A DNA stretch of 52,979 bases, taken from Bacillota bacterium (GTDB lineage: Bacteria > Sysuimicrobiota > Sysuimicrobiia > Sysuimicrobiales > Segetimicrobiaceae). The position numbers were made by a program, and so were the translations under genes. The notes under the pieces are model-generated. The model saw only the letters and a list, made by a program, of their open reading frames with translations. It was not told the origin of the DNA and did not search any database. The DNA is taken from positions 1-52,979 of the forward strand of contig JAJPJL010000131.1 in the NCBI GenBank assembly GCA_021324255.1, read 5' to 3'. Each line of letters opens with the position of its first letter. The stretch's first letter is position 1. Positions 8,415 through 19,542 of this stretch are shown here, piece by piece.

Positions 8415-9998
8415 ATGACGGACGCCGCCGGCGTCCCGGCCGTCGCCGCCCCCGTCACGGCGGAGCCCCACCTGCGGCGGGACGTCTCGGTGTGGGGCTC
8501 CTTTATGTGGGGGTTCGCCGATGTCGGCGCCGACATCTACGCGGCCCTCGGCATCGTCATCGCCGCGACGATGGGCGCGGCCCCGCTCGCGTTTGGCGCG
8601 GCCGGGCTCGTCTACGTCATGATCGGGCTCGCCTACACCGAATTGGCGTCGGCGTATCCGATGGCCGGCGGCGGGCAGTATTTCGTCAGCCGCGGGCTCG
8701 GCGACCTCGCGGGGTTCATCGCCGGCGCCGCGCTGCTGCTCGACTACACCATCGACATCGCCCTGTTTGCGACGTTTTCCGCAGGCTACGTGAACTTCTT
8801 CCTCCCCGCGGCGCGCGACTTCAAGATGACGCTCGGGCCGTTCGTCAACATCAACCCGGTCTGGGCCGGCGAGACGGTCGTCATGATCGTGTTCCTGACC
8901 TGGGTGAACATGATCGGCGTGCGGGAGTCCTCGCTCCTCAACGAGCTGCTCGGCGCGTTCGGGCTGGTCGTGGAGGCCGGCCTCATCGTCGTCGGACTGA
9001 TCTTCGCGTGGGACCCGGGGCTGTTGGTCCGGCAGTGGGTCCACCAGTTTCCGTCGCTCCCGCAGTTCATGTACGGCTCGTCGCTCGCCATCATCTCCTA
9101 CGTGGGGCTGGAGTCGATCTCGCAGGCGGCCCAGGAGACGCGGCGGCCGGCGACCGTGATCCCGCGCACGTCGATCGGCCTGATCGGCAGCGTGTTCTTG
9201 TTCGCCGTGTTCTTCGCCATCACGGCGCTCGGGATTCTCCCCTGGCAGGCCTACGCCCGGGACACCGGCGATGCGGTCGCGCTCTTGGCGAGCCGGCTCC
9301 CGTTCGTCGGGCTGATCGCCGGGCCGTTCGCCGCGGTGCTCGGCGCGGTCGTCCTGCTGATCTCGGCGAACACGGGCGTCATGGGGGCGAGCCGGCTCGC
9401 GTTCTCCATGAGCCGCCTCGGCCTCGCCTCACCGTGGCTGCGCGAGGTACACTCCCGCTACCGCACTCCGGTGCGCACGATCCTCGTGTTCTCGGGCCTC
9501 GGCCTGCTCGAGGCGGTGCTCGCGTTTCTCACCCCGAGCGCGGTCGACGCTCTGGCCAACATGTACGCGTTCGGCGCGACGCTCGGGTATACGCTCGTGT
9601 TCGTGGCGCTGATCGCGCTCAGGTTTCGCGATCCCTATACGCCGCGGCCGTACCGCGTGCCGGTGAATCTCCCCTGGCGGCGCGGCGGCACGACCGTCAT
9701 GGTGCCGATCATCGGCTTCCTCGGGCTGGTCGGGGTGCTGTTCACGCTCACGGAGGTCGTGCTGACCCACGCGATCGGCCGCATCGCGGGGCCGGCGTGG
9801 GTGCTCGGATGCCTCGGCTACTATTTCTGGTACCGGCGGCGGGAGCGCCTGCCGCTCGCCGGCAGCGTCGCGCACCACTGGGAAGAACATCAGCGGGCGG
9901 TGCTCCGGGATGCCGGGGAGCACGATCTGCTCGAGGAGTACGAAATCGCGCTGGCGCAGCGCGACCGCCAGCTCGCGAAGAAGCAGTCCCGTGCCTGA
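8415..9998 (+). CDS. APC-superfamily permease (amino acid or potassium uptake)
   Basis: This 527-residue integral membrane protein has about twelve hydrophobic segments and APC hallmarks: YPMAGGGQYFVSR after helix 2, AGAALLLDYTIDIALF in helix 3, and GLESISQAAQETRRP. The segment around AGAALLLDY resembles the KimA/YdaO branch, which transports K+ by proton symport, though amino acid permeases share it. The C-terminal 55 residues are a charged cytoplasmic tail. It is followed with overlaps by a two-helix protein, a Usp-domain protein and two TrkA/RCK proteins. KimA itself carries a Usp-like domain, so K+ transport is a reasonable inference. The substrate is not proven by sequence. Confidence 0.85.
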   Translation: MTDAAGVPAVAAPVTAEPHLRRDVSVWGSFMWGFADVGADIYAALGIVIAATMGAAPLAFGAAGLVYVMIGLAYTELASAYPMAGGGQYFVSRGLGDLAGFIAGAALLLDYTIDIALFATFSAGYVNFFLPAARDFKMTLGPFVNINPVWAGETVVMIVFLTWVNMIGVRESSLLNELLGAFGLVVEAGLIVVGLIFAWDPGLLVRQWVHQFPSLPQFMYGSSLAIISYVGLESISQAAQETRRPATVIPRTSIGLIGSVFLFAVFFAITALGILPWQAYARDTGDAVALLASRLPFVGLIAGPFAAVLGAVVLLISANTGVMGASRLAFSMSRLGLASPWLREVHSRYRTPVRTILVFSGLGLLEAVLAFLTPSAVDALANMYAFGATLGYTLVFVALIALRFRDPYTPRPYRVPVNLPWRRGGTTVMVPIIGFLGLVGVLFTLTEVVLTHAIGRIAGPAWVLGCLGYYFWYRRRERLPLAGSVAHHWEEHQRAVLRDAGEHDLLEEYEIALAQRDRQLAKKQSRA

Positions 9999-10203
9999 CA
10001 CGCCGCGCTTCACGTGGGCGGACGGGTACCGCACCGTCACCAGCGCCCTCATGGTGGTGGTCGGCGTGGTGATCCTCGTCCGGACGCTGCCATTCGGGGT
10101 GCATCTCGCGGCGGTGCTCGTGGGCGGGTGCTTCATCGGGCTCGGCGCCTACCGGCTGTCGTTCGTGGTGGCGTACCTGGGGCGGCGCCGGGGTGCGGCG
10201 TGA
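9991..10203 (+). CDS. Small two-helix membrane protein of unknown function
   Basis: From GTG 9991 the protein is 70 residues with two transmembrane helices (about 17-34 and 38-58) and short basic ends. Its start overlaps the permease stop by eight bases, and its TGA overlaps the next GTG (GTGA), so it is translated within the transporter operon. I recognise no family. A small accessory subunit of the carrier is the simplest guess. Confidence 0.7.
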   Translation: MPDTPRFTWADGYRTVTSALMVVVGVVILVRTLPFGVHLAAVLVGGCFIGLGAYRLSFVVAYLGRRRGAA

Positions 10204-10850
10204 CCGGCGGGGCGCACGTCAGCGTGATGGGCACGGTGCTGGCGGCCGGGTTTGCCGCCGCGCTCGCCGGCCTGCTGCTGTGGATGCTGCGGGTGCCGCG
10301 CCCGGTCTCCGCGCAGGTGGCGCGGGCGGTCCACTCCGTGGGGGCCGTGCGGGTCATCCTCGTGCCGATCCTCGAAGCCTACTACTCCGAGCGCGCGGTG
10401 GAACTGGCGAGCCGGCTCGGCCAGCTGCAGAAGGCGGCGATCCGGCTGAGCTACATCATCGAGGTGCCGCGCACGCTGTCGCTGGGCGTGCCGCTGCCCG
10501 CCACCGAGGAGCAGGCCGCGCGGGCGCTCGACGGCGCCAAGCAGATCGTGCAGATGCACGACCTCGAGGTCGACGCCGAGATCGTGCGCGCGCGCGAGGC
10601 CGGCGAGGGCATCGTGCGCACGGCGAGGGACAACGACGTGGATCTCATCGTGCTGGGCATCTCTCCGGGTTCCGGCCTGCTCGAGGGCTTGACCGCGCGC
10701 GCGGCGGAGTCCCTCCTCCGTCACGCGCCGTGCGAGGTGATCATCGACCGGCTGGCGGAGACGAGCCCGGGCCTCCCGAGCCCCGAGGAGCCGGAGGCGA
10801 GCGCCGGGGCAGGGCGCGGCCGGGAGGAGGCGCCCTCCCGGCCGGTGTAA
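10200..10850 (+). CDS. Membrane-anchored universal stress protein (UspA domain)
   Basis: The 216-residue protein begins with one transmembrane helix (about 10-30), then a UspA-type alpha/beta domain (about 48-182) with VRVILVPILEAYYSERAVELA at its first strand, DNDVDLIVLGI, and a C-terminal HAPCEVIIDR strand as in Usp proteins. An acidic Pro-rich tail follows. GTG 10200 overlaps the upstream stop. The nucleotide-binding G-x2-G-x9-G-S/T loop is only partly kept (GISPGSGLLEGLTARAAESLL). Position between the carrier and RCK genes suggests a nucleotide-sensing regulatory subunit. Confidence 0.8.
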   Translation: MTGGAHVSVMGTVLAAGFAAALAGLLLWMLRVPRPVSAQVARAVHSVGAVRVILVPILEAYYSERAVELASRLGQLQKAAIRLSYIIEVPRTLSLGVPLPATEEQAARALDGAKQIVQMHDLEVDAEIVRAREAGEGIVRTARDNDVDLIVLGISPGSGLLEGLTARAAESLLRHAPCEVIIDRLAETSPGLPSPEEPEASAGAGRGREEAPSRPV

Positions 10851-10889
10851 CCCCACAGGGCAGGGAGCGTGGCGAAGGGAGCGGATCGG

Positions 10890-11381
10890 ATGCACATTGT
10901 CGTCCTTGGCTGCGGGCGGGTCGGCGCAACGCTCGCGATGGCCCTTGAAGCCGAGGGCCATTCCGTCGCGGTGATCGACCGGAACCGGGACGCGTTCCGC
11001 CGCCTCCCCCGCGACTTCAAGGGCAAGACGGTGCTGGGCATCGGTATCGACGAGGACGTGCTGCGCAAGGCGGGGATCGAGCGCGCCGGGGGCTTCGCGG
11101 CGACCACGAACGGCGACAACACCAACATCATGTCCGCGCAGATCGTCAAGGTGCGGTTCCGCGTGCCCCGCGTGATCGCCCGGATCTACGATCCTCTGCG
11201 CGCGGAAGCCTACCGAGAGCTCGGCATCGACACGATCAGCCCGACGCTGCTGGGGGCGGGGATGTGCCGGGACTACCTGCTCGGCGAGCCGTACCGGCAC
11301 GTCGACGAGTATCTCGCGCTGCGGGACGCGCCGCGGGGCCTGGCTCGACGCTCGGGGGCGGTCCCGGAAAGGGGCCGGTGA
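10890..11381 (+). CDS. TrkA-N (RCK) NAD-binding protein, first of a pair
   Basis: TrkA/KtrA-type proteins gate K+ and related transporters in response to bound nucleotides. This 163-residue product has a Rossmann fold (VVLGCGRVGATLA, acidic end of strand 2 at AVIDRN) and the RCK segment RVPRVIARIYDP. It lacks a full TrkA-C domain. ATG 10890 has GAAGGGA at proper spacing; a GTG at 10869 is the less likely alternative. It is separated by one base from the second TrkA gene. Confidence 0.88.
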   Translation: MHIVVLGCGRVGATLAMALEAEGHSVAVIDRNRDAFRRLPRDFKGKTVLGIGIDEDVLRKAGIERAGGFAATTNGDNTNIMSAQIVKVRFRVPRVIARIYDPLRAEAYRELGIDTISPTLLGAGMCRDYLLGEPYRHVDEYLALRDAPRGLARRSGAVPERGR

Positions 11382-11382
11382 C

Positions 11383-12057
11383 ATGTATGTGATCGTGGCC
11401 GGAGGCGGAAAGGTCGGGTACTACCTGACCAAGGCGCTGTGCGCCGGCGGGCAAGAGGTCACGCTGATCGAGAAGGCGCGCCAGCGCTACGACCTGCTGC
11501 AGGAAGCGTTCGGCGAGAGCGTCGTGCTGGGCGATGCGTGCGAGGTCACCACCCTGGACCAGGCCGGCGCCGGGAGGGCGGAGCTGGTGGCCGCGGTGAC
11601 CGGCGACGACGAGGACAACCTCGTCATCTGCCAGATGGCGAAGCGGAAGTTCAAGGTGCCGCGCGTCATCGCCCGCATCAACAATCCCAAGAACGAGGTG
11701 ACGTTTCAGTTCCTCGGCATCGACGAGACCGTGAGCTCCACGAAGCTGATCTACAGCTTGATCGAGCAGGAAGTGGAGGTGGCCGACGTCATTCCGCTGA
11801 CCGCCCTGCGCCGCGGCAACCTCGAGCTCGTCGAGGTCGCGCTGACGGCCGATTCTCCCGCGGTCGGACGGATGCTGCGGGACATCGCCCTGCCGCCAAA
11901 CTGCATCCTCGCCATCCTCGTGCGCGGCGAGACCGCGTCGATCGTGACCAGCGACCTCCGGTTCGAACCCGGCGATATCCTCGTGGCCATCGTGCCGTCC
12001 GCCGCGGTCCAGTCGTTCCGGGAGGCACTGCTCGGCCGGGGTGTCCCGACGCGCTGA
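11383..12057 (+). CDS. TrkA-N plus TrkA-C (RCK) regulatory protein
   Basis: The 224-residue protein has a TrkA-N Rossmann domain (VIVAGGGKVGYYL, VPRVIARINNPKN; about 1-125) and a TrkA-C domain (about 135-220, ending with EPGDILVAIVPS). TrkA-C domains in Bacillota often bind c-di-AMP, though nothing here proves that. With the preceding RCK-only protein it could form a heteromeric gating ring for the APC carrier. It is the last gene of the five-gene unit; ECF sigma factor genes follow after 70 bases. Confidence 0.92.
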   Translation: MYVIVAGGGKVGYYLTKALCAGGQEVTLIEKARQRYDLLQEAFGESVVLGDACEVTTLDQAGAGRAELVAAVTGDDEDNLVICQMAKRKFKVPRVIARINNPKNEVTFQFLGIDETVSSTKLIYSLIEQEVEVADVIPLTALRRGNLELVEVALTADSPAVGRMLRDIALPPNCILAILVRGETASIVTSDLRFEPGDILVAIVPSAAVQSFREALLGRGVPTR

Positions 12058-12066
12058 CGGCGGCCG

Positions 12067-12093
12067 GGAACCGCGGTCCGTCCCCGGACGCTA
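12067..12093 (+). promoter_or_regulatory. Possible ECF-type promoter before the sigma factor gene
   Basis: GGGAACC (core GGAAC 12067-12071) is followed after 17 bases by CGCTA (12089-12093), resembling the GGAAC / CGT-like elements of ECF promoters. It lies directly upstream of the ECF sigma gene, where self-regulation is common. The evidence is one short match. Confidence 0.3.
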
Positions 12094-12127: not shown

Positions 12128-12754
12128 ATGGCTGATGCGGTTTCCGTGCTGAGCGGCCGTGTCGAGGGGGTGGCGGTGACGCCCGAACCGGCCGAGCAAG
12201 GCGCTGCACACCGCCTTGCCGCCTTCGAGGAGCTCCTGCACCGCCATCTCCGCAACATTCACCGCGTCGCGTACCGTCTGTCGGGAAACGCCGACGACGC
12301 GGAAGATCTGGTTCAGGAAGCGCTCGTCGAGGCGTTTCGAGCCTTCGACCGGTACCAGCCGGGCACGTACTTCGACCGCTGGGTGTACCGCATCATGACG
12401 CGCACGCACATCGATCGCGTGCGCCGGCGGGGACGGCGCCCCGAGACATCGCTCGACACCCCCGTCGGCCCGAGCGGCGACGCGCTGGTGACGATGATCG
12501 GCGACACGCGCGACGACCCGCAGCAACGCACCGAGACGGCGGACCTGGACGGGCCGATCCAGGCCGCGTTGGACGCATTGCCCGCCGAGTTCCGGACGGC
12601 CGTCGTCCTTGCGGACGTGGAGGGCCTATCGTATGATGAAATCGCGGCCGCGGTTGGATGTCCGATCGGCACCGTGCGGTCGCGCCTGCATCGCGGCCGG
12701 GAGATGCTTCGCCAGGCGCTGCAGCCGTATCTAGGGCGTAGGAGTCGCGAGTGA
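12128..12754 (+). CDS. ECF RNA polymerase sigma factor
   Basis: This 208-residue sigma-70 relative has only regions 2 and 4. Region 2 is seen at AHRLAAFEELL through DAEDLVQEALVEAFRAFDRY (core binding and -10 recognition). Region 4 is seen at LPAEFRTAVVLADVEGLSYDEIAAAVG then GTVRSRLHRGREMLR (helix-turn-helix for -35). ATG 12128 has AAGGGG upstream. GTGA overlap with the following zinc-finger protein marks a sigma/anti-sigma pair. A possible ECF promoter precedes it. Confidence 0.95.
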   Translation: MADAVSVLSGRVEGVAVTPEPAEQGAAHRLAAFEELLHRHLRNIHRVAYRLSGNADDAEDLVQEALVEAFRAFDRYQPGTYFDRWVYRIMTRTHIDRVRRRGRRPETSLDTPVGPSGDALVTMIGDTRDDPQQRTETADLDGPIQAALDALPAEFRTAVVLADVEGLSYDEIAAAVGCPIGTVRSRLHRGREMLRQALQPYLGRRSRE

Positions 12755-13236
12755 ACGAGCACGTCATCGATCGCCTCTCTCCGTACCTCGACGGCGCGCT
12801 CGGGGCCGCCGATCTCGAGCGGGTGGAGGCGCACCTCGAGGCGTGCGCGAGCTGCCGGCGAACGTATCGGGAACTCGAGACCCTCCAGGGCCTGGTGCGC
12901 GCGCTGCCCGATCCCGAGCCGCCGCCGGGATTGGCCGACCGCCTGCACTGGCGCCTGCGGCGCGAGGCCGCGGGTCTCCGCCGCCCGGCGCCGCTCTGGT
13001 GGTTCTCCGTGCGGCCGCCGTTCCGTGTCGCGCTGGCATGCGCCACGCTGCTGGTCGTCCTCGGAGTGCCGGCCGCGTGGATGGCGAATCGGTTCGCGCC
13101 GCCAAAGACGCCCCTGGATACCGACGCCTACGTCCGCGAGTACCTGATGCTGTCCGTGGATCGGCCGCTCGGGGACGAGGCGGCGCCGCCGTTCGTGCTG
13201 TCGGACACGCCCGCATCGGAGTCACCTCGTCGGTAA
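12751..13236 (+). CDS. Zinc-finger (zf-HC2) transmembrane anti-sigma factor
   Basis: The 161-residue protein begins with a cytoplasmic zf-HC2 anti-sigma domain whose H-x3-C-x2-C motif is H28/C32/C35 (HLEACASC). One transmembrane helix lies at about residues 90-110, and an extracytoplasmic tail of about 50 residues follows. It should bind the ECF sigma factor until a signal at the envelope releases it. The zinc ligands could sense thiol stress, but the outside tail and the downstream RseB-like protein point to an envelope signal. Confidence 0.92.
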   Translation: MNEHVIDRLSPYLDGALGAADLERVEAHLEACASCRRTYRELETLQGLVRALPDPEPPPGLADRLHWRLRREAAGLRRPAPLWWFSVRPPFRVALACATLLVVLGVPAAWMANRFAPPKTPLDTDAYVREYLMLSVDRPLGDEAAPPFVLSDTPASESPRR

Positions 13237-13237
13237 G

Positions 13238-15685
13238 ATGACACGCGCGATCCGCCGCCGCGTCGCCGCCCTGGCGATCGGTATGGCGGGCGTTGCCGTG
13301 CTCGGCGCGGCGCCGGTGCTGCCGGCGGCGGCGCAGCTCCCCGGATCGCCCGCGGGCAACGAGGCCCTGGCCTGGTTGCGGGCGGCCGCCGCGGCGCCGC
13401 AGACGGTGAGCTACGAGGGCACGCGGACGTGGAGCGTCTGGGCCGGCCGGGTGCAGGCGTACCAGGTCCACGTCTACCACCGGGCGCCGAACCAGACGCG
13501 CCTGGAGTATCTCGCCGTCGGCGACCAGCCCGCGCGGATCGTCGTCGTCAGCGGCGCGACCCAGGTGACGTATACGCCGGCCGCCAACACGTTCGTCCGC
13601 GCTCCCGCGGCGCGCACCGAGGAGGCGCTGGCCCAGCGGATCCTGCCGCAGATCGCGGAAAACTACGTGGTCCGCTTCGCCGGCGCCGATCAGGTCGCCG
13701 GCCGCGCCGCGCGGATCATCGACGTCCAGAGCAAGTTTCCCGGGCGGCCGCGCCTGCGGGTGTGGGTGGACACCCGCACGCACCTGATCCTGCGCTTCGA
13801 ACGGTACGGCCCCGCCGGCGCCCTCCGCCAGGAATCGGCGTTTATCCAGCTGCGCATCAATCCCCAATTCCCGCCGGGGCTGTTCGAGCTCGCCCCGCCG
13901 CCCGGCGCGCAGCTCGAGACGCGGCGCCCGGCCGGAAAGCTCACCATCGAGGAAATTGCGCAGCGGGTCGGATTCACGCCCCAGCTCCCCGCATACCTCC
14001 CGGCCGGATACGCGCTGGTGGGCTCTCGGGTGGTGCAGGTGCGCGGCGTGTCCGCGGCGGTCTTCACGTTCACGGACGGCGTGGCGACGTTGACGCTGTT
14101 CGAAAGCCGCGGCGCGCAGGGCGAGCCGGCCAACGCGCAGCGCGTCCAGATCAACGGGGCGGCGGGCGCGATCACGACGAGGGGCGTGGCGAACGTGCTC
14201 CACTGGAACGTCCGCGATCTGTCGTTCACGCTCGTGGGCGATCTGCCGCGGCAGGAGATGGTGCGGGTCGGAGGGTCGCTCCGGTCGTTCGGCGTGTCCG
14301 AGGCGCCGGTGGACTGGGGGCGGCGCGCGCGCCTGTGGCTGGCCGCCGCGCTCGCGCTGCCCGCGGCGCAGGCCGCGCAGCCGCGGGGCGCCGCGGTGCC
14401 GGCCGATGCGTCTGCCGCGCCGGGCCCGGTGGCGCCGTACATCACGAACAACACGCACGTGATCGGGCCTGGGATCGTCCCCGAGGAGCGGGCCGTCTGG
14501 AAGGCCATGGTGGCGCGCGGGCTCGCGCCGGCGGTGGTCAAGGTCACCGTCGCCGGCGACGGGGTCACGAGGCTGCCGGACGGGCGGCTTGCCCGTCTGG
14601 CGTGGATCTGGTTTGTCTACGGCATGCAATGGACGGGCGGGGCCCCGGGCGCGGTGCACGAGGTGCAGGGCCGCGCCGCCGCGCTGGCGCGCGCGGCGTT
14701 CGGCGCGGACCCGCGGATCACGCGGGTCCTGCTGACGGGGTACTACCATCAAAGCGGCCGCTTCGACGGGCGGCGCACCGACGTGACGTTTACCGCACAG
14801 CTCACGCGCGCCCGGTTCACCGCGAGCGGGGGCGACCCCGCGCCGGGAGCGTTCCTCGCGAGGGCGGGGGACGTTTGGTACAGCCCCGCCCTCCTGGCGG
14901 GCGATCTGGTCGAGCAACCGGCGGAGCCGCACGACCCGCACGTGTCCGCCGCCGAGCGGCTGCGCCTCGCCCGGCTGCCGGGCGACCGCGCCGTGGAGTC
15001 GGCCGAGACGTTCCACGGGGGGCTCCTCGCGAGCATCGTGGAGACCAAGCGCCGGCTGCAGGGTCTGCTCTTCGGCGGCGAGAACGAGGGCCGGCTCTGG
15101 CGCGGCGACCCGCTCCGCCGCGAGATGGCCTTGACGTTCGATGACGGCCCGAGCCCGCTTGCCACACCGTTGCTGCTGGCGATCCTGCGGCGCTACGGCG
15201 TGCATGCCACGTTTTTCGTGATCGGCGAGCACGCGCGGGCCTATCCCTATCTGCTCCGCGAGATGGCCGCCGACGGCGACGAGATCGGCGACCATACGTT
15301 CCACCATCCCAACCTGTCGTCCGTCGACGACGCCACCGCGGCGCAGGAGATTGCCGCGACCGCCGCGGTCATCGAGCGGGATGCCGCGCGGCGCCCCCGG
15401 TGGTTCCGCCCGCCGGGCGGGGACTATACCGGCGCCGTCGTGACGGCCGCGGGCCGCACGGGCCTGGGGCTCGCCATGTGGACCGACAATTCCGGGGACT
15501 GGGCGCTGCCGCCGCCCAAGGTCGTCGTCGAGCACGTGCTCGCGCATGCGCAGCCCGGCGGCGTGGTACTCTTACACAATGGGACGCTCAACACCGTTCA
15601 GGCCTTGCCCAGAATCATCGCCGAGTTGAGACGCCGGGGCTACCGGCTGGTCACGCTCTCCCAGCTCGTTCGGGACGCAGAGTGA
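13238..15685 (+). CDS. Exported RseB/MucB-like sensor domain fused to a NodB polysaccharide deacetylase
   Basis: One uninterrupted 815-codon frame joins two functions. A signal peptide (about 1-32) leads into an RseB/LolA-like domain (about 38-235), then a small MucB-C/DUF4367-like module (about 245-345, with YLPAGYALVGSRVV). A middle region I do not recognise spans about 400-600. The NodB domain starts near 628: TFDDGP (D635, D636), HTFHH (H686, H690), RPPGGD (R724) and LLHNG (H780). The metal triad and motifs are complete, except that the usual Asp after H780 is Asn. RseB proteins bind envelope signals and control anti-sigma factors. NodB enzymes remove N-acetyl groups from peptidoglycan or glycans. 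The gene starts one base after the anti-sigma stop. Confidence 0.85.
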   Translation: MTRAIRRRVAALAIGMAGVAVLGAAPVLPAAAQLPGSPAGNEALAWLRAAAAAPQTVSYEGTRTWSVWAGRVQAYQVHVYHRAPNQTRLEYLAVGDQPARIVVVSGATQVTYTPAANTFVRAPAARTEEALAQRILPQIAENYVVRFAGADQVAGRAARIIDVQSKFPGRPRLRVWVDTRTHLILRFERYGPAGALRQESAFIQLRINPQFPPGLFELAPPPGAQLETRRPAGKLTIEEIAQRVGFTPQLPAYLPAGYALVGSRVVQVRGVSAAVFTFTDGVATLTLFESRGAQGEPANAQRVQINGAAGAITTRGVANVLHWNVRDLSFTLVGDLPRQEMVRVGGSLRSFGVSEAPVDWGRRARLWLAAALALPAAQAAQPRGAAVPADASAAPGPVAPYITNNTHVIGPGIVPEERAVWKAMVARGLAPAVVKVTVAGDGVTRLPDGRLARLAWIWFVYGMQWTGGAPGAVHEVQGRAAALARAAFGADPRITRVLLTGYYHQSGRFDGRRTDVTFTAQLTRARFTASGGDPAPGAFLARAGDVWYSPALLAGDLVEQPAEPHDPHVSAAERLRLARLPGDRAVESAETFHGGLLASIVETKRRLQGLLFGGENEGRLWRGDPLRREMALTFDDGPSPLATPLLLAILRRYGVHATFFVIGEHARAYPYLLREMAADGDEIGDHTFHHPNLSSVDDATAAQEIAATAAVIERDAARRPRWFRPPGGDYTGAVVTAAGRTGLGLAMWTDNSGDWALPPPKVVVEHVLAHAQPGGVVLLHNGTLNTVQALPRIIAELRRRGYRLVTLSQLVRDAE

Positions 15686-15691
15686 GCCGCG

Positions 15692-16429
15692 ATGCATGAC
15701 AAAGAGATGACCCTCGTCGAACACCTGGAGGAGCTGCGGCAGCGGCTCACCCACGCCATCCTGGGCCTCCTCGTCGCCAGCGGGGCCGGGCTCGTGTTCG
15801 TGGACACCCTGCTGCACCTGCTGCTCCGGCCCTTGGGCGGCATCAAGCTCACCACGCTCACCGTGCTCGAACCGTTTCTGGTCAAGCTCAAGGTGGCGTT
15901 CCTGTTCGGGTTCGCCGTGAGCATGCCCTGGATCGTCTACCAGATGTTCGCGTTCGTCGCGCCGGCGCTGACCGATCACGAGCGCCGCCGGGTCGTGCCG
16001 ATCGCGCTGCTCGCCGGCGCGCTGTTTGCCTGCGGCGTCGTCTTCGCCTACGTGTTCGTGCTGCCGGTCAGCACGCACTGGCTGATCGCGCAGGCCGGGC
16101 GCCAGTTCAACGTCCTGATCACCGCAAACTCCTATATCACCTACGTCCTGTTCTTTCTGCTGATCGTCGGCGGCACGTTCGAGACGCCGCTCCTCATCCT
16201 GTCGCTGGCGATGCTCGGCATCGTCAGCCCGCAGACGCTGCGCAAGGAGTGGCGGATCGCCTACATGGTGGCCGCCGCGATCGCCGTGCTCGGCACCCCG
16301 GATTGGAGTCCGGTCACGATGGTCCTCGTGTTCATCCCGATGGTGCTGCTGTACGAGTTCAGCCTGATCTTGTGCCGGATTTTCGTCCGGCCGCCTAGCC
16401 CGCAGCCCGCGCACACCGCCGGCACCTAA
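15692..16429 (+). CDS. tatC: Sec-independent protein translocase TatC
   Basis: TatC is the receptor of the twin-arginine export pathway for folded proteins. The 245-residue protein opens with MTLVEHLEELRQRL, the TatC N-terminal signature, and has six transmembrane segments with the conserved first-periplasmic-loop and ETPLLI helix 4 region. ATG 15692 lies six bases after the deacetylase stop, so it is cotranscribed. No tatA lies nearby. At least one clear Tat substrate is in this window, the peptide-binding protein at 32586. Confidence 0.96.
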   Translation: MHDKEMTLVEHLEELRQRLTHAILGLLVASGAGLVFVDTLLHLLLRPLGGIKLTTLTVLEPFLVKLKVAFLFGFAVSMPWIVYQMFAFVAPALTDHERRRVVPIALLAGALFACGVVFAYVFVLPVSTHWLIAQAGRQFNVLITANSYITYVLFFLLIVGGTFETPLLILSLAMLGIVSPQTLRKEWRIAYMVAAAIAVLGTPDWSPVTMVLVFIPMVLLYEFSLILCRIFVRPPSPQPAHTAGT

Positions 16430-16567: not shown

Positions 16568-16576
16568 TGATACAAT
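16568..16576 (+). promoter_or_regulatory. Extended -10 promoter of the FAD oxidoreductase gene
   Basis: TGATACAAT at 16568-16576 matches TGnTANAAT. Its last two bases are part of the first possible ATG (16575), so that ATG cannot be translated from this promoter. Expected transcription start is near 16583. Confidence 0.5.
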
Positions 16577-16586
16577 GTTGCGCAAG

Positions 16587-18119
16587 GTGTCTCAAACTGG
16601 CCGAACGGTCGTTGCGTTGCCGCGCCTGCGCGCCGTCGCGGCCGGCGTGCTGGCCGGCATCCTGGTCGTCGTGGTGAACGGCCCGGCCGGTGCCGGCGTC
16701 GCGCCGCCGTCAGTTCCGTACGAGTGTTCCATGCTGGTCCCCGTCTACGTTGCCGGCGGCACCCCCGCCGGGGTCGCGGCGGCGGTGACGGCCGCCCGCA
16801 TGGGCGAGCCGGTGTTCATGACCGAGGAGCGTCCGTATCTCGGCGGCGATCTCACCGGCCCGATGCTCAATATGCTGGACATGGACTTCGGCCGGGACGG
16901 GCTGCAACTCGCCCAGGGCGTGTTCCTGGACATCTATCACCGTCTCGGCCTGACGTTCGACGTCGAGACCGCGAAGCAGGTCTTCATGGACGAGGTGCGC
17001 AAGGAGCCGTTGATCACCCTGCGGCTGCTCACGCGCCCGGTCGCGGCGATCGTCGACGGCCAGTGGATCCGAGGCATCGTCGTCGAAAATCTGCTGACGC
17101 ACCGCCAGGAGACGATCTGCGCGAAGCGGATCATCGACGCGACGGACGACGCGGACGTCGCCGCCATGGCGGGCGTGCCCTACGCGCTCGGGCGGGAGAG
17201 CTCGGGGATCGACCGCACCATGATGTCGTCGACGCTGGTGTTCGAGCTCGGCGGCGTGAACTGGCGGCAGGTCGTGGCCTACATCACCGGACGGAGCCGC
17301 GCGATGCTCCACATGACGGGCATCTACCGCGGGAACGTCTGGGGATACGACACGATCATGCGCCAGTATCACCCCTCGCAGCCCGGCGTTGCGATCTACG
17401 ATCTGAACATCGGCCTGCAGCACGACCACTCGGTGTTGATCAACGGGCTGTTGATCTTCGGCGTGGACGGCACGGACCCGGTCTCGGTCGCGGACGGCAT
17501 GCGGCGGGGCCGCCTGGAGCTGCCGGGTCTCGTGGAGTACCTGCGCGAGATGGCCCCGGGATTCGAGCACGCGTATCTGATCCGCGCCGCCGACTACCTC
17601 TACATCCGCGAGACGCGGCACATTCGCGGCATGTACACGCTGACGGCCCAGGACATCGTGACGAGTCGGGTCTTTTGGGACGCGGTCGGGGTCGCGAGCT
17701 ATCCGATCGACCTGCACCCGTACCGGCCGGGGGAGTTCAACCCGTTTGCGGCCCGCCGATACGTGTACACGATTCCGTTCCGCGCGCTCGTCCCGCACGG
17801 CATCGGCAACCTGGTGGTCGCGAGCCGGTCCATCTCCGCCACCTACGAAGCCGCCGGGTCGGCGCGCGTCGTGCCGACGACGATGGAGGAAGGGCAGGCG
17901 GCGGGCGCGGCGGCGGTGATCTCGATCGACAACCGGCTCTCGTTTCGCCAGATGGCGCTCGCGCCCGACCTGGTGCACACCCTGCAGCTCGCGCTGCACG
18001 CCGAGGGCGCCTACCTCCTCCCGGAGACGCTGCTGGCGGCGGGGCAGTCGTCGCGCGGGCTTGGAGACCGCCAGCCGGCGGTGCCCGCTCCGGTCGCGCG
18101 GTCGTCCACGCGCCAGTAG
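16587..18119 (+). CDS. Exported FAD-dependent oxidoreductase (FAD_oxidored family)
   Basis: A signal peptide (hydrophobic GVLAGILVVVV, cleavage near AGAG) is followed by an FAD Rossmann motif (VYVAGGTPAGVAAAVTAARMG), then RIIDATDDADVAAMAGVPYALGRE, typical of the FAD_oxidored family, and a C-terminal region GNLVVASRSISATYEAAGSARV that closes the FAD site. About 510 residues. The longest frame starts at ATG 16575, but that overlaps the -10 box, so GTG 16587 is preferred; the message would then be nearly leaderless. The signal has no twin arginine despite tatC next door. Substrate unknown. Confidence 0.82.
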   Translation: MSQTGRTVVALPRLRAVAAGVLAGILVVVVNGPAGAGVAPPSVPYECSMLVPVYVAGGTPAGVAAAVTAARMGEPVFMTEERPYLGGDLTGPMLNMLDMDFGRDGLQLAQGVFLDIYHRLGLTFDVETAKQVFMDEVRKEPLITLRLLTRPVAAIVDGQWIRGIVVENLLTHRQETICAKRIIDATDDADVAAMAGVPYALGRESSGIDRTMMSSTLVFELGGVNWRQVVAYITGRSRAMLHMTGIYRGNVWGYDTIMRQYHPSQPGVAIYDLNIGLQHDHSVLINGLLIFGVDGTDPVSVADGMRRGRLELPGLVEYLREMAPGFEHAYLIRAADYLYIRETRHIRGMYTLTAQDIVTSRVFWDAVGVASYPIDLHPYRPGEFNPFAARRYVYTIPFRALVPHGIGNLVVASRSISATYEAAGSARVVPTTMEEGQAAGAAAVISIDNRLSFRQMALAPDLVHTLQLALHAEGAYLLPETLLAAGQSSRGLGDRQPAVPAPVARSSTRQ

Positions 18120-18195
18120 TGCGCGCGCCGCCCGTGCGCTCAACGGGGATGTGTCGTGCGGCCGCCGGCGCGGGGCGGGCTCCGGCGGGCACCGG

Positions 18196-19542
18196 ATGAT
18201 CTGGAACCCGGCGGTCGAGACCCTCCCCCGCGCTGAACTGGCGGCGCTCCAGCTCTCCCGGCTTCGGGCGGTCGCGCAGCGCGTGTACGACGGCGTGCCG
18301 TTCTACCGCGCGGCGTTCGACCGGGCGGGCGTCCGGCCCGACGAGCTCCGCAGCCTCGACGATCTGCGCCGGCTGCCGATGACCCGCAAGAGCGACCTCC
18401 GCGACCACTATCCGTTCGGCCTGTTCGCCGCTCCGATGGACCGGATCGTGCGCCTCCACGCTTCCTCGGGCACGACCGGGCGTCCGACGGTCGTCGGCTA
18501 CACGCGAGCGGACCTCGCCGTGTGGGCGGAGGTGTGCGCCCGGTCGCTCGCCGCGAGCGGCGCGCGCCCGGGCGACGTGTTCCACAACGCCTACGGGTAC
18601 GGGTTGTTCACCGGGGGCCTCGGGATGCACTACGGCGCCGAGTTGATGGGGCTCGTAGTGGTGCCCGTGTCAGGGGGGAATACGGAGCGCCAGCTGCTCC
18701 TGATCCGGGACTTCCGGCCGCGCGTCATCGCCTGCACCCCTTCGTACCTGCTCACGCTGGCAGACGCCGCCCGGGCGCACGGCCTCGATCCGGCCGGGGT
18801 GTCCCTGCGGGTGGCGGTCCTCGGCGCCGAGCCCTGGACCGACGAGATGCGCCGCCAGATCGAGCGCAGTCTTCCGCTCAAGGCCGTCAACATCTACGGG
18901 TTGAGCGAGGTGATCGGGCCGGGCGTCAGCAACGAGTGCGTGGAAGCGCAGCGGGGCTCGCACGTGTTCGAGGAGCACTTTCTCGTGGAAGCCGTCGATC
19001 CAAACACCGGGGAGCCGGTCCCGCCGGGGACGCGCGGCGAGCTCGTGTTCACGACGCTCACCAAGGAAGCGCTGCCCGTGATTCGCTACCGCACCGGGGA
19101 CATCGCCGCGCTCGACCCCGCGCCGTGCCCGTGCGGCCGGACGCACGTCCGGATGTCCATGGTCGTCGGCCGCACCGACGACATGCTGATCATCCGCGGC
19201 GTCAACGTCTTTCCGTCCCAGGTCGAGTCCGTGCTCGTCCAGTTCGCGGAGCTGTCGCCTCACTACCAGCTCATCGTCACGCGGCCCCGCACGCTCGACG
19301 TCCTCGAGGCGCGGATCGAAGTGTCGCCGGCGTGGCCGGCGGCGGCCCGGGCGCTCGACCCCGGCGACCGTGAGGTCGAAGCGCTGCGCGAGCGGGTCAC
19401 GAAGCAGCTGCGGGGCGTGATCGGCATCGCCGTGGACGTGTCGCTGGCGGCCCCGGGGACCCTGCCGCGCAGCGAGGGCGGCAAGCTCCGCCGTGTGGTG
19501 GACCGGCGCGTCACGCCCGGCCAAACACCAGGCTCGCATTGA
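18196..19542 (+). CDS. paaK: Phenylacetate-CoA ligase (PaaK family)
   Basis: PaaK-type enzymes activate phenylacetate or related aryl acids to CoA thioesters through an acyl-AMP. The 448-residue protein has the AMP-binding P-loop HASSGTTGRPTVVGYT, the IYGLSEVIGPG motif, RYRTGDIAAL, and a C-terminal domain with GRTDDMLIIRGVNVFPSQVE and RSEGGKLRRVVDRR. Full length for the family. ATG 18196 has only a weak ribosome site. No other paa genes are present, so the substrate may be another aryl acid. Its 3' end overlaps the convergent ketosynthase gene by 32 bases. Confidence 0.93.
   Translation: MIWNPAVETLPRAELAALQLSRLRAVAQRVYDGVPFYRAAFDRAGVRPDELRSLDDLRRLPMTRKSDLRDHYPFGLFAAPMDRIVRLHASSGTTGRPTVVGYTRADLAVWAEVCARSLAASGARPGDVFHNAYGYGLFTGGLGMHYGAELMGLVVVPVSGGNTERQLLLIRDFRPRVIACTPSYLLTLADAARAHGLDPAGVSLRVAVLGAEPWTDEMRRQIERSLPLKAVNIYGLSEVIGPGVSNECVEAQRGSHVFEEHFLVEAVDPNTGEPVPPGTRGELVFTTLTKEALPVIRYRTGDIAALDPAPCPCGRTHVRMSMVVGRTDDMLIIRGVNVFPSQVESVLVQFAELSPHYQLIVTRPRTLDVLEARIEVSPAWPAAARALDPGDREVEALRERVTKQLRGVIGIAVDVSLAAPGTLPRSEGGKLRRVVDRRVTPGQTPGSH

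Follow-up and report, generated by a model that had tools for sequence, protein, structure and literature searches.

Results

Our analysis of the window (the whole stretch of 52,979 nucleotides) revealed four closely packed genes on the plus strand, encoding an ECF sigma factor, a membrane-type anti-sigma factor, a fusion of an RseB-like protein with a NodB polysaccharide deacetylase, and TatC (Table 1). The sigma and anti-sigma genes overlap by 4 bases, the fusion gene starts 1 base past the anti-sigma stop codon, and tatC starts 6 bases past the fusion gene; the four form one tight operon. An earlier note on this DNA had delimited a four-gene unit at 12128–16429 and had placed an RseB–NodB chain within it. 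Our gene calls give the same coordinates, and the chain and its setting are confirmed by Pfam and by a gene order conserved across the window's family (f1). Just 5' of the operon (8415–12057) lie a permease-like gene, a universal-stress-like gene and two TrkA-type genes, in an order kept in most f1 genomes and not seen at the loci of genus g3 (G004, G007, G009). On the 3' side (16575–19542), genes for an FAD-dependent oxidoreductase (PF12831) and an AMP-binding, phenylacetate-CoA-ligase-like protein are syntenic across f1.

Table 1. Genes, domains and predicted promoter of the operon, in window coordinates.
Feature	Position	Strand	Size and evidence
Predicted ECF-type promoter, GGAACCGCGGTCCGTCCCCGGACGCT (GGAAC-N17-CGCT)	12067–12092	+	ends 35 bases 5' of the sigma start codon
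ECF sigma factor gene	12128–12754	+	208 aa; Sigma70_r2 E 3e-18, Sigma70_r4_2 E 6e-17 (Pfam)
zf-HC2 anti-sigma factor gene, membrane type	12751–13236	+	161 aa; zf-HC2 E 1e-11 (Pfam)
Fusion gene: signal peptide, RseB, middle domain, NodB	13238–15685	+	815 aa; Pfam, alignment
RseB/MucB-like region	13343–14311	+	residues 36–358; LolA-like N-terminal and C-terminal domain
Middle domain	14423–15073	+	residues about 395–612
CE4/NodB polysaccharide deacetylase domain	15098–15682	+	residues 621–815; Polysacc_deac_1 E 4e-33 (Pfam)
tatC	15692–16429	+	245 aa; TatC E 1e-56; TIGR00945 above cut-off (Pfam, NCBIfam)

The sigma factor carries Sigma70 regions r2 and r4_2 and its partner the HxxxCxxC motif, as in ECF/zf-HC2 (ZAS) pairs. 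Among NCBIfam models, SigE (PRK09647) fits the sigma factor best, at 176 bits, below the equivalog cut-off of 265. In the anti-sigma factor, alignment shows a single hydrophobic segment in the membrane and, outside it, a tail of some 45 residues with the motif DAYVREYLMLSVDRPLGDE. The f1 form, DAYVREY...PLGDE, is a version of D-x-Y-h-R-x-(H/Y)...P-h-x-D, a motif common to the fused systems of f1, their unfused paralogues and other families of the order, and found in part beside an unfused RseB in a genome of another phylum (G048). The Pfam search detected zf-HC2 alone in the anti-sigma factor, and RsiV-type outer domains (DUF4163/DUF3298) were not found.

The N-terminal part of the fusion chain matches MucB_RseB (PF03888) at residues 43–212 (E 1e-17; 64.3 bits, cut-off 22.3) and, weakly, MucB_RseB_C (PF17188) at residues 253–347 (18.6 bits, under the cut-off of 30.1). 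A profile built from the f1 family and its unfused relatives matches Pseudomonas aeruginosa MucB (6in8; E 5e-14) over positions 5–289 of 299, covering both domains, and most of Escherichia coli RseB (2v42/2p4b; E 2e-8). On these sequence comparisons the fusion holds a two-domain RseB/MucB protein, with the C-terminal domain recognised by the profile and PF17188 alone remaining below its cut-off; since the profile spans both domains, the RseB-like character claimed earlier for this part stands. Three of the four residues named between the domains of MucB (Y119, R146, Y147 and D247; PMC7400510) map, with an offset of 17 between precursor and chain 6in8, to invariant f1 positions (Y143, R170 and D280). 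The fusion gene also occupies the position of an RseB gene, directly 3' of the sigma and anti-sigma genes.

At the other end of the chain, the Polysacc_deac_1 match covers residues 626–743, and the CE4 motifs TFDDGP (633–638), H686-T-x-x-H690-P, R724-P-P, D754-W and L778-x-H780 are all intact and invariant in the eight orthologues aligned, so that the NodB domain is complete, as had been proposed. Its motifs identify it as a CE4 deacetylase with predicted enzyme activity. The domain was aligned with 7y51, 7fbw, 5o6y and PdaC, and its nearest solved structures include 7y51/7fbw (predicted xylanase/chitin deacetylase), peptidoglycan GlcNAc deacetylases and PdaC. The best NCBIfam model is PdaB (TIGR02764), at 154.8 bits, below the equivalog cut-off of 237.4; peptidoglycan is the obvious guess for the substrate. 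Conservation along the chain is highest in NodB, with 93.8, 83.8 and 71.3% identity in G001, G002 and G005, against 88.4, 69.8 and 58.1% for the RseB part.

The earlier domain description, right about RseB and NodB, had missed a third domain between them. This middle domain of about 200 residues matched no Pfam or NCBIfam family. Together with NodB it makes up secreted proteins of about 430 residues in other families of the order, and it aligns with the N-terminal regions of these stand-alone deacetylases at an hhalign probability of 98.7 (E 3e-16). The middle domain therefore goes with the deacetylase, and the gene that became fused to RseB was a deacetylase gene of this composition (mid-NodB). 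A model of the middle domain alone was weak (mean pLDDT 60); its best Foldseek E value was 0.03, and VIA-align returned Z scores below 7, to common alpha-beta arrangements only (MamM/CzcD C-terminal domains and CamS-type proteins). A full-length AlphaFold2 model of the fusion (mean pLDDT 50, six sequences) was discarded.

The fusion is present in all 12 f1 genomes of our sample (the window's genome and 11 others), whole in 8 and in pieces in 4, the latter at contig ends in G004, G008 and G011 and in a damaged frame in G010. Whole copies share 54–90% identity, with constant neighbours in the order sigma, anti-sigma, fusion, tatC; this recurrence of a single open frame and its gene order in other f1 genomes shows that the fusion is no assembly artefact. 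Named relatives recovered by the scan are soil MAGs ('Terrabacteria group bacterium ANGP1') and Centralia MAGs ('Bacillota bacterium'), which, from their names and PMC11604079, we read as Segetimicrobiaceae of the Sysuimicrobiota. Omp85 occurs in all 12 f1 genomes, and these bacteria are therefore diderm, with an outer membrane and a periplasm.

A PF03888 search of 386 genomes, including 343 from outside the order, found RseB frames longer than 800 residues in f1 only. The longest elsewhere reached 670 residues, and those that were read proved to belong to the unfused paralogue, extended from stop to stop in high-GC DNA; in 16 genomes of one further phylum, frames reached 463 residues, none of them fusion-sized. 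Given that no frames of such size occurred in the other ~390 genomes sampled, the fusion seems confined to f1 in this sample.

In the most closely related system, that of genus g17 in family f4 (G028 and G031), the same parts occur separately: the deacetylase is encoded by a mid-NodB gene just upstream of a sigma/anti-sigma/RseB operon. The split parts are thus neighbours, and not unrelated genes, the arrangement that the earlier note had named as speaking against its proposal. Adjacent separate genes in one lineage that are fused in another are a classical sign of parts working together. In the sigma tree, the G028 and G031 sigma factors and one from G017 (family f7) group with the f1 fusion-operon sigma factor with moderate support (bootstrap 90, SH-aLRT 86), apart from the sigma factors of a second, widespread unfused sigma/anti-sigma/RseB operon that is also found in f1. 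The RseB tree kept the unfused paralogues apart and did not firmly join the fused and split forms. The unfused operon of the window's own genome (L050, G000:C103, 8401–10768) is conserved across the order and has a different upstream element, CGAACTTTTT...CGTT. As a separate observation, the split sigma operon of g17 begins with a small secreted 131-residue ORF of no known family (L046, 10052–10447), which stands behind GGAAC-N17-CGCT.

Each of the ten f1 loci for which upstream DNA is available has the element GGAAC-N17-CGCT, with identical spacing, ending 32–47 bases before the sigma gene; in G028 and G031 it precedes the split operon at the same spacing. A conserved promoter ahead of the operon supports the coexpression of its genes that had been suggested earlier. 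Genome-wide, the pattern is near chance level (41 matches against 24 for the reversed control in the window's own genome, 37 against 29 in G005), and calling targets from it without conservation was rejected; the predicted regulon is therefore defined by conservation only, and other targets may be missed. We searched f1 with a stricter GGAACTT form and fetched orthologues of the targets from all genomes. The strict search returned the operon itself, recurrent matches 5' of a DUF1800 gene and of a small secreted protein gene, and tatA once. Among the orthologues, the element precedes the DUF1800–DUF1501 pair in 9 of 9 cases (7 with N17, 2 with N18), DUF1800 in all six genomes not used as seeds, tatA1 in 8 of 11 under the strict form (10 of 11 with CGTT allowed) and the small secreted protein in 7 of 7 (one N18). 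The control paralogue tatA2 has it in 2 of 12, strictly scored.

DUF1501, encoded directly after DUF1800, carries the Tat signal TRREFLAKG, a neighbourhood noted before (PMC5122149), and the small protein, with the N-terminus MTRKEFLAG, is likewise of Tat type. With tatC in the operon and tatA1, DUF1800–DUF1501 and the small Tat-type protein behind the element, the predicted regulon is Tat-centred. Assignment of these targets to the fusion-operon sigma factor is a prediction from the element shared with its own operon, and a similar promoter could serve a different ECF sigma factor. Eleven genomes of other families yielded no DUF1800, and the tatC of the f4 split system lies elsewhere, without the element; the Tat link is thus specific to f1, and the deacetylase link is shared by f1 and f4. 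Two genomes (L105, G000:C71; L107, G002:C3) share a strict GGAACTT-N15-CGCT element together with homologous DNA downstream; in G002 the element is followed by a secreted protein with many WVWVGGHW-type repeats, a possible further target.

Discussion

Based on the domains, the operon, its conservation, the promoter pattern and the split neighbouring arrangement in another family, all observed here, we propose that the locus encodes an envelope-stress switch of the SigE/RpoE type in which the RseB-type partner is fused to an envelope polysaccharide deacetylase, a scheme that we consider, taken as a whole, reasonably likely. From these observations we infer its remaining parts, namely docking, signal, proteolysis, substrate and feedback. 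The 815-residue fusion protein would be exported, and its RseB part would dock on the membrane-bound anti-sigma factor at its short outer tail, shielding it from cleavage and parking the deacetylase at the inner membrane. Such docking is probably retained, because the tail motif is shared with the partners of unfused RseB proteins, and a signalling role of the RseB part, as suggested in the earlier note, is to this extent probable. An envelope signal, for example a misplaced lipid or glycolipid by analogy with RseB and MucB, would loosen the docking, whereupon the anti-sigma factor would be cut and the sigma factor freed; outer-membrane lipids could be the signal in f1, as they are for RseB and MucB. 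The free sigma factor would then transcribe from GGAAC-N17-CGCT promoters its own operon, tatA, DUF1800–DUF1501 and the gene of the small Tat-type protein. More capacity for Tat export, more of selected cargo and more of the fusion protein itself would result. Released or newly made fusion protein would deacetylate peptidoglycan or another envelope glycan and then rebind the anti-sigma factor, so that the effector would also carry the feedback signal. We considered twin-arginine export for the fusion itself but rejected it, since the signal peptides of genus g2 (L034, L036) lack the arginine pair.

The fusion protein is thus most likely an RseB-type brake and a carrier of the deacetylase to the envelope. 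A sensor that is also an effector, as the earlier note had envisaged, is plausible. The tighter version, in which RseB docking restrains or positions the deacetylase, so that a single signal would release sigma factor and enzyme together and the state of product or substrate would feed back on the switch, we put forward tentatively, as a possibility with the odds against it. The chain might also be cut after export.

Could the RseB-like part have lost its role in signalling? It might instead hold a lipid or glycan for the enzyme or activate it, making the gene an effector only. A precedent exists in Clostridioides difficile, where GerS, a LolA-like lipoprotein of the RseB/LolA fold, activates the wall enzyme CwlD through an interface that resembles the RseB/MucB one (PMC8496864), and the position of NodB as the best conserved part of the chain would fit such a role. 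Unlike the fusion, GerS and CwlD are separate proteins that act in spore formation with no sigma operon, and CwlD is an amidase. The RseB part of the fusion, however, retains both domains and the inter-domain residues, its gene lies directly 3' of the anti-sigma gene like unfused RseB genes, the anti-sigma tail keeps the motif found with unfused partners, and no other RseB gene able to act as a brake was seen in the operon. We therefore regard a pure effector as unlikely.

Alternatively, the system may chiefly monitor Tat export. On this view the tatC gene of the operon and the tatA of the regulon are what matters, and the deacetylase is an accessory output. Besides tatC, the genes for TatA1, DUF1501 with its Tat signal and the small Tat-type protein stand behind the same promoter, and comparable associations are known from Corynebacterium glutamicum, with sigE-cseE-tatB and a GGAAC-N18-GTT promoter (PMC10012870), and Mycobacterium tuberculosis, with rseA-htrA-tatB (PMC10027907). 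In the f4 split system, however, tatC lies elsewhere and lacks the element and DUF1800 was not found, leaving the deacetylase as the shared link, and a Tat-status switch appears to us rather improbable. A third possibility, for which the earlier note had offered lysozyme-like attack as the trigger, is a lysozyme or muramidase response: attack would switch the sigma factor on and the deacetylase would make the cells resistant, in the manner of sigma-V and PdaV in C. difficile. ECF control of peptidoglycan deacetylases is known there (PMC9044953, PMC4183432), and PgdA/PdaC-type structures are among the relatives of the CE4 domain. Against this, the anti-sigma factor lacks the lysozyme-binding domain of RsiV, no second gene for lysozyme resistance was recognised in the Tat-centred predicted regulon, and the Omp85-bearing cells are diderm, which makes this reading very improbable.

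How does the envelope-stress switch that we favour compare with known systems? Known RseB proteins are separate periplasmic brakes. The RpoE–RseA–RseB system of E. coli and AlgU–MucA–MucB of P. aeruginosa likewise unite an ECF sigma factor, a membrane anti-sigma factor and a two-domain RseB/MucB protein in one operon, whereas here RseB runs on into the middle domain and a CE4 deacetylase, the anti-sigma factor is of zf-HC2 type with a short tail, and the operon ends in tatC. Actinobacterial sigE-cseE/rseA-(htrA)-tatB loci share the SigE-like ECF sigma factor, the anti-sigma factor, a Tat gene and a GGAAC-type promoter (PMC10012870, PMC10027907), but those operons, as described, lack RseB and deacetylase, and carry tatB in place of tatC. 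In Salmonella, tatABC is induced by envelope stress (PMC9604234). In C. difficile, sigma-V also controls a peptidoglycan deacetylase, PdaV (PMC9044953), which is encoded by a separate gene, and the sensor there is the lysozyme-binding anti-sigma factor RsiV, with no RseB. CE4 deacetylases of the PdaB/PdaC/PgdA type have all the CE4 motifs found here, and an N-terminal RseB has not been described in them as far as we searched. No description of an RseB–deacetylase fusion in one chain was found in the literature searched, in which coverage of subscription papers is thin; to that extent the earlier statement that no protein of this design had been characterised holds. The chain is a new domain combination within known kinds.

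What is the relevance of this combination? In a diderm phylum that lacks a cultured model, a brake and a presumed wall-modifying enzyme are here combined in a single chain, and the controlling sigma factor is predicted to act on the Tat translocase and Tat cargo. The locus thereby offers a testable link among RseB sensing, glycan deacetylation and Tat export, which are usually studied apart, and may help to account for the presence of a tat gene in actinobacterial sigE operons, described as hard to understand (PMC10027907).
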